From the NCBI GenBank assembly GCA_021375695.1, contig JAEPKX010000016.1, positions 1-38,282 of the forward strand: a DNA stretch of 38,282 bases. The letters run 5' to 3'. How positions within the stretch are numbered: position 1 is the first letter of the stretch; each line of letters begins with the position of its first letter. The notes below the pieces were generated by a model. It was not told where the DNA came from, did not search any database, and worked only from the letters and a program-made list of their open reading frames with translations. A program made the translations under genes and the position numbers. Below are positions 30,242-35,827 of this stretch, piece by piece. The stretch comes from Candidatus Igneacidithiobacillus taupoensis (GTDB lineage Bacteria > Pseudomonadota > Gammaproteobacteria > Acidithiobacillales > Acidithiobacillaceae).

Positions 30242-31684
30242 TCATTGGGTGCCACCGACCGTCAGCCCGCGTATCTTCAAGGTGGGTTGACCAACCCCCA
30301 CCGGGACACTTTGTCCCTCCTTACCGCAGGTACCCACACCTGTATCTAATTGGAGATCATTGCCGATCATTTCAACCCGCGTCAGCACATCGGGCCCATT
30401 ACCAATCAATGTGGCCCCTTTCACGGGATGGGTAATCTTGCCATTTTCAATCAGGTAGGCCTCCGAAGCCGAAAAGACAAATTTTCCGCTGGTAATGTCT
30501 ACCTGACCACCGCCAAAATTCACGGCATAAATTCCCTTTTGCACACTAGCAATGATCTCCTGGGGATCGCGGCTGCCGGCCCGCATGTATGTATTGGTCA
30601 TCCGTGGCATGGGCAGATGGGCATAGGATTCGCGCCGGCCATTACCCGTGGAGCGCTCGCCCATCAGTCTGGCATTCAAGGTATCCTGCAGATAGCCACG
30701 CAGGATACCGTCCTCAATGAGTACGGTACACTGGGTGGGCGTACCCTCATCGTCCAGGTTCAGACTTCCACGACGGCCCGGCAGAGTACCGTCATCTACC
30801 ACCGTTACCCCTGGCGCCGCTACCCGCTCGCCGATCCGTCCGGCAAAGGCACTACTGCCCTTGCGGTTGAAGTCCCCCTCCAAACCATGGCCAATGGCCT
30901 CATGCAACAGAATCCCAGGCCACCCTGGACCTAATACGACATCCATGGTACCAGCCGGGGCGGGTATTGCCGCAAGATTGACCAGGGCTTGCCGCACCGC
31001 CTCGTGGGCATAGTGCTCGACTGTGCCACGACCGAGGAACTCACGATAGTCATGACGCCCACCCCCCCCATAACTGCCCTGCTCCCGTCGCCCGTGTTCT
31101 TCGGCAACCACGGTGACATTCAAGCGCACCAAAGGGCGGATATCGGCAGCCAGGCTTCCGTCGAGCCGCGCCACCAGCACCACTTCATGACGAGCAACCA
31201 GACTGGCCATGACTTGCACTACGCGCGGATCATGCGCTCTCGCTGCGGCCTCCAGGCGTTCCAGAAGGGCGATTTTTTCGGAATTGCTAATACTAGCCAA
31301 GGGGTCATTTCTCGGATACAACTGCAATCCAGATCGTGAGCGCCATTGCAGGGAGCGCTCACCGCCCGCGTGATGCACAATACTGCGTGCGGCCTTGGCA
31401 GCACCCAACAATGCCTCCACGGCGATCTCGTCGGAATAGGCCAGCCCCTGCCTTTCCCCTTGCAGGGCGCGCACCCCCACTCCCTGCTGGATGCTGTGAT
31501 TTCCAGATTTGACCACGCCTTCTTCCAGGCTGAACGACTCGCTTCGGCTATACTGAAAGTACAGATCCGCATCATCCAGGGCGCGCCGGCTGAGCTGGCT
31601 GAAAATCCGGTCTAGCACCGCCTCATCAATGCCGGCTGGTCGCAGCAGGGTATCCTGTGCCAACTGCAGGGCAGATTCTGTCAT
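30242..31684 (-). CDS. tldD: TldD metalloprotease
   Basis: A 480-residue subunit of the TldD/TldE protease that trims modified peptides such as microcin B17 precursors and degrades the CcdA antitoxin in E. coli. The zinc motif [11 protein letters not shown] (HExxxH, about residue 257) is intact, and conserved C-terminal blocks such as [19 protein letters not shown] are present. The TldE partner (pmbA) is not in the window. ATG at 31684 with GGAG about 9 nt upstream gives the family length; ATG at 31699 is possible. It is divergent from nrdA. Confidence 0.95.
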
Positions 31685-31715
31685 AATTTGGTACTCCATC
31701 CGTTCTCATGAATGG

Positions 31716-31767: not shown

Positions 31768-31776
31768 TTATCCCCA
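31768..31776 (+). promoter_or_regulatory. DnaA-box-like site upstream of nrdA
   Basis: TTATCCCCA differs from the consensus DnaA box TTATCCACA at one position and lies about 36 bp upstream of the nrdA -35 box. In E. coli the nrd promoter is controlled by DnaA, so the placement is suggestive. A single 9-mer can occur by chance. Confidence 0.4.
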
Positions 31777-31796
31777 GATGTTCCACCACGTTATTA

Positions 31797-31812
31797 ACAC
31801 AATATATACGAT
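31797..31812 (+). promoter_or_regulatory. NrdR box 1
   Basis: ACACAATATATACGAT matches the palindromic NrdR-box consensus (ACAC-W-ATATAT-W-GTGT) at 13 of 16 positions; the left half is perfect. It abuts the nrdA -35 hexamer. NrdR is an ATP-cone repressor of ribonucleotide reductase genes. Confidence 0.65.
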
Positions 31813-31840
31813 TGACAATGCATGCAATCAACTATATGTT
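31812..31840 (+). promoter_or_regulatory. sigma70-type promoter for nrdAB
   Basis: TTGACA at 31812-31817 is a perfect -35 box. After a 17-bp spacer, TATGTT at 31835-31840 is a fair -10 box. Transcription would start near 31848, close to the nrdA start at 31870. Confidence 0.65.
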
Positions 31841-31844
31841 GTGA
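31829..31844 (+). promoter_or_regulatory. NrdR box 2
   Basis: CAACTATATGTTGTGA matches the NrdR-box consensus at 12 of 16 positions; here the right half is the better one. It overlaps the nrdA -10 box and lies exactly 32 bp after box 1. That is the three-turn spacing typical of paired NrdR sites. Confidence 0.65.
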
Positions 31845-31869
31845 AAAGCCAAGCTCAATGGGGAAAACC

Positions 31870-34692
31870 ATGTCACTTGCAGCGCAATCCAGTCTCTCCG
31901 CTTCCCAGGAATCTCTTCACCGCGTAATCCGTCGTAATGGTGCAGTGGTTCCCTTCGAAACCAGCAAAATCCAGGTGGCCATGACCAAGGCCTTCCTGGC
32001 CGTGGAAGGCAGCACGGGGGCTGCCAGCGCCCGCGTGCGGGATCAAGTTGCCCGCCTGACCCAGCAGGTGGTCCAGGCCCTGACCCGTCGCCAGCCGGGC
32101 GGAGGGACTTTTCACATCGAGGATATCCAAGACCAGGTGGAACTCGCCTTGATGCGTGCCGGCGAGCACGAAGTCGCCCGGGCCTATGTTCTCTACCGGG
32201 AAGAGCGCGCCCGGGAACGAGCGCAACGGCAACAACAGGAAGCGCCAGCAAAGGAGATCCACGTACGCTTGGACAACGGTCAAACGATCCCACTGGATCG
32301 GGAACGGCTGCGGGCTGTCATTGCCGAGGCCTGTGCCGGCCTGGGCGAGGCCGTCGTACCGGAAACCATCCTGCAGGGCACCCTGAAAAATCTTTACGAC
32401 GGAATCAGTGAACAGGAGGTTTTCCAGGCCCCTATTTTGGCGAGCCGGATTCTGATTGAACAGGACCCTGCCTATGCCTATGTTTCTGCCAGACTCCTGC
32501 TAGACCGTATCCGCCGCGAGGTGTTGCAGGAGCCCTGCACCCAAGCCCAAATGCAGCAACGCTACCCAGAATATTTTCGGGATTATCTGGAGACGGGCAT
32601 TCGCCACGAGCTCATCGACCCGCGTCTTGGCCAGTTTGATCTGGACCGGATTACGGCCGCCCTAAGACCGGAACGCGACCTCCAATTTCAATATCTTGGC
32701 CTGCAGATCCTTTATGATCGCTATTTTCTGCACATCCGTGAACGGCGCATCGAACTGCCCCAAGCCTTCTGGATGCGGGTAGCCATGGGTCTTGCCCTGG
32801 AGGAGATCGACCGCGAAGAACAGGCCATCTCCTTCTACGAAATCCTCTCCCAATTCGACTTTGTCAGTTCCACGCCAACCCTTTTTAATTCCGGTACCTT
32901 GCGACCCCAGCTATCGAGCTGCTTTTTAACCACTGTGGCCGACGACCTGGATGGTATTTATGAGTCCATCAAGGATAACGCCCTCCTCTCCAAATACTCT
33001 GGGGGGCTTGGCAACGACTGGACCCGGGTCCGGGCACTCGGCTCCTATATCAAGGGCACCAATGGTAAAAGCCAAGGGGTTGTGCCCTTCCTGAAAGTAG
33101 TCAACGACACTGCCGTCGCCGTCAATCAGGGGGGCAAACGCAAGGGTGCCGTCTGCGCCTATCTGGAAACCTGGCACCTGGACATCGAAGAGTTTCTGGA
33201 GCTGCGCAAAAACACCGGCGACGACCGCCGCCGCACCCACGACATGAATACTGCCAACTGGATTCCCGATCTCTTCATGGAAAGGGTGGAAAGCGGTGGC
33301 GAATGGACCCTTTTTAGCCCCAATGAGGTTGCTGATCTGCACGATGCTTTCGGAACGGCTTTCCGCGAGCGGTACGAACACTATGAGCGCATGGCGGATG
33401 CGGGCCAAATCGCACTGTTCAAGCGTCTGCCAGCCATTGCCCTCTGGCGCAAGATGCTTACCATGCTCTTCGAGACGGGACACCCCTGGATCACTTTCAA
33501 AGACCCCTGCAATCTACGTAGTCCACAACAACATGTGGGCGTGGTCCACAGTTCCAATCTTTGTACGGAAATCACCCTCAACACCAGCGACAAGGAAATA
33601 GCCGTCTGCAATTTGGGTTCCGTCAATCTCCTGAGCCATCTGCGCATTCCTACCAGGAAAGATTCTCTTTCCCTCCGTACGGAAATGTCAGCCCAGGAAA
33701 TCCTGGAGTGTATCGACACCGATAAACTGGCCCGGACTATCCGTGTGGCCATGCGCATGCTGGACAATGTCATCGATATCAACTATTACGCCCTGGCCAA
33801 GGCCCGCAACAGCAATCTGCGACATCGCCCGGTGGGGCTGGGGCTCATGGGTTTTTCCGATGCCCTCCTCGCCCTGCGCATCCCCTATGCATCCGAGGCA
33901 GCTGTGCTCTTTGCCGACATCAGTCAGGAACTGATCAGCTATCATGCCATTGACGCCTCGGCTGACCTTGCCCGTGAGCGCGGCAGCTACCAGAGCTTTC
34001 CTGGCTCCCTGTGGAGCCAGGGAATCCTGCCCATCGACAGTATCGAGATCCTGGCACGAAACCGTGTCAACGGCGTTGATCTGGATCGCAGCCAACGCCT
34101 CGACTGGTCGATCCTGCGGGAAAAGGTACGCGGCGGGATGCGCAACAGCAATTGCCTCGCCATCGCCCCTACCGCCACCATCTCCAATATCGTGGGCGTC
34201 AGCCAGGGCATTGAACCCATCTATCAGAATCTGTACGTCAAGTCGAATCTTTCCGGAGAATTCACCGTCGTCAATCAGTTCCTGGTGGCCGACCTCAAAG
34301 ACCTGGGACTCTGGGACGAGGTAATGGTCAATGATCTCAAGTATTTTGATGGATCCATCCAGCCTATCGACCGCATCCCCGAAACCCTCAAGCCCTTATA
34401 CGCCAACGCCTTTGAAATCGATGCAAAATGGCTGGTGGAGGCCGGGGCCCGGCGGCAGAAATGGCTGGACCAATCCCAGAGTCTGAACCTCTATTTTGCC
34501 CAGGCGTCTGGCAAAAAAATTGACGAGACCTATCGCCTTGCCTGGCAACGCGGTATCAAGACCACCTATTATCTTCGTTCCCTGGGAGCAACGGCGGCCG
34601 AAAAATCAACGGTCCAGGCAGGAACCCTAAATGCTGTCCCCACCCGCAAGGCCTGCGCCATCGACGACCCAGGTTGCGAGGCCTGCCAATAA
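31870..34692 (+). CDS. nrdA: class I ribonucleotide reductase alpha subunit
   Basis: A 940-residue catalytic subunit reducing ribonucleoside diphosphates to deoxy forms. The N-terminus has one clear ATP-cone ([20 protein letters not shown], about residues 17-110) and a second cone-like region (about 127-215), longer than the E. coli protein and like the two-cone enzymes of Pseudomonas. Catalytic residues: Cys351 (SSCFLTT), Asn563-Cys565-Glu567 (NLCTE), Cys580 ([10 protein letters not shown]), the radical-transfer Tyr900-Tyr901 (TYYLRSLGA), and the C-terminal redox pair Cys936/Cys939 (GCEAC). ATG at 31870 has GGGGA 5 nt upstream; in-frame ATGs at 31822 and 31858 are less well placed relative to the promoter. 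Confidence 0.95.
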
Positions 34693-34708
34693 TTGCAAGG
34701 AGAAACCC

Positions 34709-35827
34709 ATGCTTGACTTTTCCGATGACAGCAACCAAAGCTTTCTAGCCACCGCCCATCAGAAGATCCCCATGGGCATGGCTGATGGTGCAATGCGGGC
34801 CCAGAGCCTCCAGCGTGTGCGCGCCGAAGATAAGCGCATCATCAACGGCAAGGCCGACGTCAATCAGCTCGTACCTTTCAAGTATCACTGGGCCTGGGAG
34901 AAATATCTGGCCGCCTGCGCCAATCACTGGATGCCGCAGGAGGTACAGATGGCGCGGGACATCGCCCTTTGGAAAGATCCCAAGGGTTTGAGCGAAGATG
35001 AGCGCCGCATCGTCAAGCGCAATCTGGGATTTTTTGTCACTGCAGATAGTCTCGCGGCCAACAACATTGTCCTTGGCACCTATCGCCATATTACCGCCCC
35101 CGAGTGTCGGCAGTATCTGTTGCGGCAGGCCTTCGAGGAAGCCATTCATACCCATGCCTACCAATACATCGTCGAAAGCCTGGGCCTGGATGAGGGCGAG
35201 ATTTTCAACATGTATCATGAAGTCCCTTCGGTGCGTGCCAAAGATGAATTTTTGCTACCCTTCATTGAGATTTTGGCCAATCCCCAGTTCAAAACTGGCA
35301 CGCTGGAGAATGATCAGCAGTTGCTGCGTTCCCTCATTGTCTTTGCCACCATCATGGAAGGGACCTTCTTCTATGTGGGTTTCAGCCAGATCCTGGCTAT
35401 GGGTCGGCAAAACAAAATGGTGGGTGCTGCCGAACAGTACCAATATATCCTGCGGGACGAGTCCATGCACTGTAATTTTGGGATCGATCTGATCAATCAG
35501 ATCAAAATCGAAAACCCACAGCTCTGGACCGAAGCATTCCAGGAGGAGATCACCAATCTCATCCGTCATGGCGTCGAGCTTGAGTGCGCCTATGCCGATG
35601 ATACTATGCCCCGGGGCGTCCTTGGACTCAATGCTCCCATGTTCAAAGAATACGTGCGCTATATTGGCAACCGGCGCTTGAGCCAAATCGGACTCGCTCC
35701 CCAATGGCATGGGGTACAGAACCCCTTCCCCTGGATGAGCGAAATGATAGATCTGAAGAAAGAAAAAAACTTCTTTGAAACACGGGTTACCGAATATCAG
35801 ACGGGAGGGGCCTTGAGCTGGGATTGA
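34709..35827 (+). CDS. nrdB: class I ribonucleotide reductase beta subunit
   Basis: A 372-residue ferritin-like radical subunit. Metal ligands can be assigned by spacing: Asp113 (TADSL), Glu144 and His147 (FEEAIH), Glu217 (IMEGTFF), Glu251 and His254 (RDESMH). The radical Tyr151 (HTHAYQY) is present. Overall the protein resembles the chlamydial Mn/Fe subunit, but that enzyme has Phe at the radical site and Glu at the first ligand; here they are Tyr and Asp, so a tyrosyl-radical (Ia-like) enzyme is expected. AAGGAG lies 7 nt before the ATG, 16 nt after nrdA. Confidence 0.96.

Follow-up and report, generated by a model that had tools for sequence, protein, structure and literature searches.

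A predicted NrdR operator with upstream DnaA-like boxes at the nrdAB promoter of Candidatus Igneacidithiobacillus taupoensis and its relatives

The nrdAB promoter in the stretch of DNA analysed here (38,282 nucleotides; contig C51 in a draft genome of 1.73 Mb and 98% completeness; hereafter the window) is probably repressed by NrdR and subject to an additional upstream input from DnaA, based on the motifs found in the window and in its relatives. We consider the site a standard NrdR operator, of a type already known, and the same is true of its predicted DnaA input; control of nrdAB by both proteins has been described for E. coli. The nrdA gene (31870..34692, plus strand) encodes the alpha subunit of a class Ia ribonucleotide reductase (RNR), whose match to PRK07207 (1659.7 bits) is well above the cut-off of 965 and which has an ATP-cone at residues 18–114. 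The nearest named record to NrdA is from Acidithiobacillus sulfuriphilus (82% in the best segment), other named records being far lower, which places the host with the Acidithiobacillaceae. The beta subunit is encoded by nrdB (34631..35827, plus strand; PRK07209, 684.3 bits, the match beginning at residue 49), and since its open reading frame, as called, overlaps nrdA, the true start of nrdB probably lies further inside that frame. Upstream of nrdA is the divergent gene tldD (30242..31699, minus strand; PRK10735), and the AT-rich intergenic region of 170 bp between the two genes contains all of the NrdR and DnaA-like sites described below.

The two NrdR boxes, box 1 (ACACAATATATACGAT, 31797..31812, plus strand) and box 2 (CAACTATATGTTGTGA, 31829..31844, plus strand), match the consensus ACACWATATATWGTGT at 13/16 and 12/16 positions, respectively, and are 32 bp apart from start to start with a spacer of 16 bp, exactly as a first-pass annotation of the DNA had reported. 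That annotation also placed one box against the −35 element and the other over the −10 element, which is accurate: the −35 element (TTGACA, 31812..31817, plus strand) shares its first base with the end of box 1, and the −10 element (TATGTT, 31835..31840, plus strand), after a spacer of 17 bp, lies within box 2. The box pair, with a summed score of 25, is the sole match of at least 23 in the window (its palindromic image being the same site on the other strand), and when the 170-bp intergenic region was dinucleotide-shuffled 5000 times, no shuffle reached a sum of 25. Across the genome, 12-mer matches to the box core occur as two close together at nrdA only. The site therefore has two 16-bp palindromic boxes, a spacer in the range of 15–17 bp that gave the best binding for four NrdRs (PMC12051234), a downstream RNR operon and an nrdR gene in the same genome, all of which are expected of an NrdR operator.

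A further feature of such operators, C4 and G13 in each box, is present in box 2 and incomplete in the window owing to box 1, which has C4 but has C at position 13 (31809) in place of the conserved G. In the nrdRJ operator of Streptomyces coelicolor, which resembles the window in its pair of 16-bp boxes separated by some three helical turns, the GC pairs at positions 4 and 13 were tied to sequence recognition by cryo-EM and mutation; inversion of one such pair in each box lowered binding ~60-fold and inversion of both pairs in box 1 lowered it ~50-fold (PMC9110341). Based on this analogy, NrdR may bind the pair in the window poorly. We regard C4 and G13 as part of the consensus but not as strictly required; their loss lowers the expected affinity, and 4 of 41 gammaproteobacterial NrdR pairs scoring at least 24 are also without one of these bases. 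By sequence, the pair in the window is clearly orthologous to the intact operators of its relatives.

The first-pass annotation had suggested that each box has only one strong half, in mirror orientation to the other, and that this may matter for how the NrdR oligomer binds. The description fits box 1 (by eye, 8/8 for the outer half and 5/8 for the inner) and does not fit box 2, whose halves both match this consensus at 6/8, again by eye. The larger idea finds no support as a rule, since C4 and G13 occur in both halves of nearly all boxes in the order, and we reject mirror half-sites as a general design for these positions and for box 2. Where the −35 element runs into box 1, the inner end of the box reads TAGTTG(ACA) and not TAGTGT, so that the overlap with the −35 element explains the weak inner ends of box 1 without any special oligomer geometry.

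The genome has a single intact nrdR, found by profile search above the TIGR00244 cut-off, with both the Zn-ribbon and the ATP-cone; it sits between a glyA-like reading frame and a ribD-like one, just ahead of the latter (names assigned by eye). The RNR content of the genome is class Ia alone: a single large subunit of class I/II is present, and class III RNR was not found. A dnaA gene is present as well, and the DnaA box TTATNCACA is enriched in the genome, with 22 occurrences compared to 9 for the reversed control. Within the family, nrdR was identified in 28 of 29 genomes. Three genomes (G022, G026, and G011) carry, besides a full nrdR, second short open reading frames that match the NrdR Zn-ribbon model (G022:C1:2211381, G026:C23:61542, and G011:C8:21399).

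Conservation of the NrdR pair among relatives is extensive. A pair with a spacer of 15, 16, or 17 bp is present in all 26 family promoters that were read (window included), and 24 of the other 25 have the promoter TTGACA-16-TATATT, in which the −10 element is fixed inside box 2 and the position of box 1 relative to the promoter slides by 0–2 bp. Every family box has C4 and G13 except box 1 of the window; across the order (28 promoters) these bases are missing only from that box and from box 2 of two outgroup genomes, and loss of G13 from box 1 is found in the window alone. The first-pass annotation had proposed scanning the genome for nrdR and for the same box pair, and had counted a missing nrdR or a lack of the boxes in close relatives against its reading. 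Neither applies: nrdR is intact and the pair is conserved in every relative tested, and the predicted control of nrdAB by NrdR is well supported at the sequence level. Its proposal that NrdR and its sensing of dATP are combined here with replication-linked control stands well for NrdR; for DnaA, the support comes mainly from relatives.

The DnaA-like box that had been called near-perfect (TTATCCCCA, 31768..31776, plus strand) is real, with 8/9 matches to TTATNCACA and a start 29 bp upstream of that of box 1, but it is weak, and a second such site that had been missed (TTATTAACA, 31791..31799, plus strand, also 8/9) overlaps NrdR box 1 by 3 bp. Two 8/9 sites in the intergenic region are by themselves only weakly unexpected (P = 0.032 in shuffles), and a candidate between them (TGTTCCACC, 31779–31787) matches at only 6/9 by eye. 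Perfect DnaA boxes, which most relatives have, are missing from the window. In the relatives, near-matches to TTATCCCCA of the form nATCCCCA occur near −28 in four congeners, and the −6 register of TTATTAACA is a perfect TTATCCACA in three loci (L097, L098, and L099). All 15 genomes of genus g2 carry the same TTATCCACA at −38, while its flanks average 61% and 71% identity. Thirteen representatives of the order have a mean of 1.92 plus-strand DnaA sites of at least 8/9, compared to 0.055 in shuffles, and no minus-strand sites at that threshold. Several relatives have a double DnaA box with a gap of 3 bp, at −16 and −4 (each at least 8/9; e.g., L100 and L102), and E. coli DnaA is known to prefer a double box with a 2–3 bp gap (PMC11317965). 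Together, these patterns argue for DnaA control of nrdAB across the relatives, with the predicted boxes of the window itself being weak examples.

Overlap of the two kinds of site is a recurrent feature of the order: 22 of the 28 promoters have a DnaA box (at least 8/9) that extends into NrdR box 1 at its outer end, with an offset of −4 or −6, and this DnaA box is perfect in L097, L098, L099, L109, and L113–L116. We also read individually the nrdA upstream regions of 67 further gammaproteobacterial genomes, one per family, and in 46 of them found an NrdR pair in which the four contact bases are all present. In 10 of these 46 a DnaA box (at least 8/9) overlaps box 1 at −4 or −6. Perfect copies of TTATNCACA lie no more than 110 bp upstream of box 1 in 26 of the 46, all on the plus strand, compared to a mean of 0.17 and a maximum of 2 in shuffles and to 2 of 51 in beta-proteobacteria. 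These perfect boxes are clustered at −26/−27, −36 to −38, and −47/−48 from box 1, which hints at helical phasing, with shared ancestry as an alternative. We do not claim phasing, since the value obtained if the 25 sites are treated as independent (R = 0.80 at 10.5 bp, 0/5000) fails once shared ancestry is allowed for: over the 7 distinct positions it is not significant (P = 0.13 at 10.5 bp and 0.78 with a period scan). Phasing to the −35 element was weaker (R = 0.42), and −35 calls in distant families are unreliable. A strict version of the composite pattern matched only G019 and one other among 369 genomes of the class, the pattern being too strict.

By analogy with other organisms, at high dATP an NrdR tetramer loaded with dATP and ATP would bind both boxes, which are three helical turns apart, bend the DNA and cover the −35 and −10 elements; as dATP falls NrdR would release and nrdAB would be transcribed. 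DnaA would bind the upstream array of same-strand boxes and modulate the promoter. In most Acidithiobacillales the outer end of box 1 and the promoter-proximal DnaA box overlap by 3–5 bp, and NrdR and DnaA are therefore probably unable to occupy this site together. In the window, both the DnaA array and box 1 have decayed, and control by NrdR and by DnaA is therefore predicted to be weaker. More tentatively, we propose as a possibility for the Acidithiobacillales and part of the Gammaproteobacteria a composite nrdAB operator: the proximal DnaA box would have DNA in common with box 1 (outer half), initiator and repressor would be mutually exclusive, a single competition site would link RNR expression to both initiation and dATP, and further DnaA boxes would lie at set distances upstream.

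It is unlikely that the site is an NrdR operator only, in which the DnaA-like sequences arose by chance or from the resemblance of an NrdR half-site (nCACA) to the end of a DnaA box (NCACA). The motifs do have CACA in common and the sites in the window are just 8/9, but the mirror-image end of box 2, which is under the same NrdR constraint, is overlapped by a DnaA box in only 1 of the 28 order promoters and 1 of the 46 pairs of the wider survey, and the overlap with box 1 was not found in any of 56 control promoters, mostly from beta-proteobacteria, that have the same NrdR boxes. Moreover, the perfect boxes further upstream are clear of the NrdR boxes and are on a single strand, 26 to 0. Far less credible still is that the DnaA boxes act on tldD and not on nrdAB. 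The boxes are within the intergenic region common to both genes; however, from one gammaproteobacterial family to another (nrdA upstream regions alone being compared) the same-strand boxes keep similar distances from the NrdR boxes of nrdA, and the double DnaA box at E. coli nrdA has ypaB, not tldD, annotated upstream.

A somewhat stronger contender, which we nonetheless consider rather unlikely, is that the operator is a relic in a shrinking genome, where NrdR control is being lost and nrdAB would be near constitutive. The loss of G13 unique to the window and its want of perfect DnaA boxes are in keeping with this, as is the genome size of 1.73 Mb, compared to 2.5–2.8 Mb in most near-complete congeners (one other is 1.7 Mb at 91%). 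Against it, nrdR is intact, box 2 and the −35 element have been retained, and so have the 16-bp spacer and the outer half of box 1. The base change in box 1 is also possibly a sequencing or assembly error in a single draft genome; a closer strain for checking it was not found, and the congener G025 (61% complete) had no nrdA match.

At E. coli nrdAB, DnaA is an activator when DnaA-ATP is low and a repressor when it is high (PMC8203912), its binding having been demonstrated by ChIP-seq (PMC11317965). The real NrdR site there lies downstream of the promoter and consists of boxes 1 and 2, the once-proposed box 0 that overlaps the promoter not being part of it (PMC12176259), which is a point against our reading of the window. 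The two systems are alike in having NrdR boxes on the promoter and same-strand DnaA boxes just upstream. However, in E. coli the DnaA boxes stop well short of the NrdR boxes, whereas in the Acidithiobacillales the NrdR pair is on the −35 and −10 elements and a DnaA box overlaps its outer end. Relative to box 0, the E. coli locus (L133) has TTATCCACA at −37 and TTATGCACT at −25, and, judged by the former position, box 0 corresponds to the box 1 of other gammaproteobacteria, suggesting that box 0 is the ancestral box 1. A precedent for an NrdR box overlapping the site of another regulator is found at Salmonella nrdDG, although the partner there is FNR and not DnaA (PMC2892513). Unlike the window, the S. 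coelicolor nrdRJ operator has no DnaA element described in the part of that study consulted (PMC9110341).

RNR supply has to match replication, and E. coli nrdAB is known to receive separate inputs from NrdR (through dATP) and DnaA (through initiation); the conserved overlap site, if true, would be a simple means of combining them. NrdR boxes were reportedly surveyed by Rodionov and Gelfand in 2005. The literature we searched, mostly without subscription papers, contained no prior report of the recurrent DnaA/NrdR overlap in this order, which may have been noticed before, and search entries on Acidithiobacillus with NrdR or DnaA boxes contained nothing pointing to nrdAB control. The window, having naturally lost a contacted G in one box, lends itself to testing to what extent one NrdR half-site is dispensable.

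Several minor observations concern nrdA elsewhere. Second copies in two Acidithiobacillus-like genomes (G005:C37, L119, and G009:C48, L120) have no good NrdR pair in the 400 bp upstream. In G017 (C1:1757723-1762735) and in G164, G179, G125, G102, G084, and G168, the NrdA matches are split within single long open reading frames of 1323–1687 aa, a pattern expected of inteins at conserved RNR sites. Lastly, the sequence around box 1 in L093 (congener G027), CTTGTCAACACTATATATAGTGTTGACAAG, forms a perfect palindrome of 30 bp in which TTGACA points in both directions; this box 1 could therefore serve two divergent promoters.
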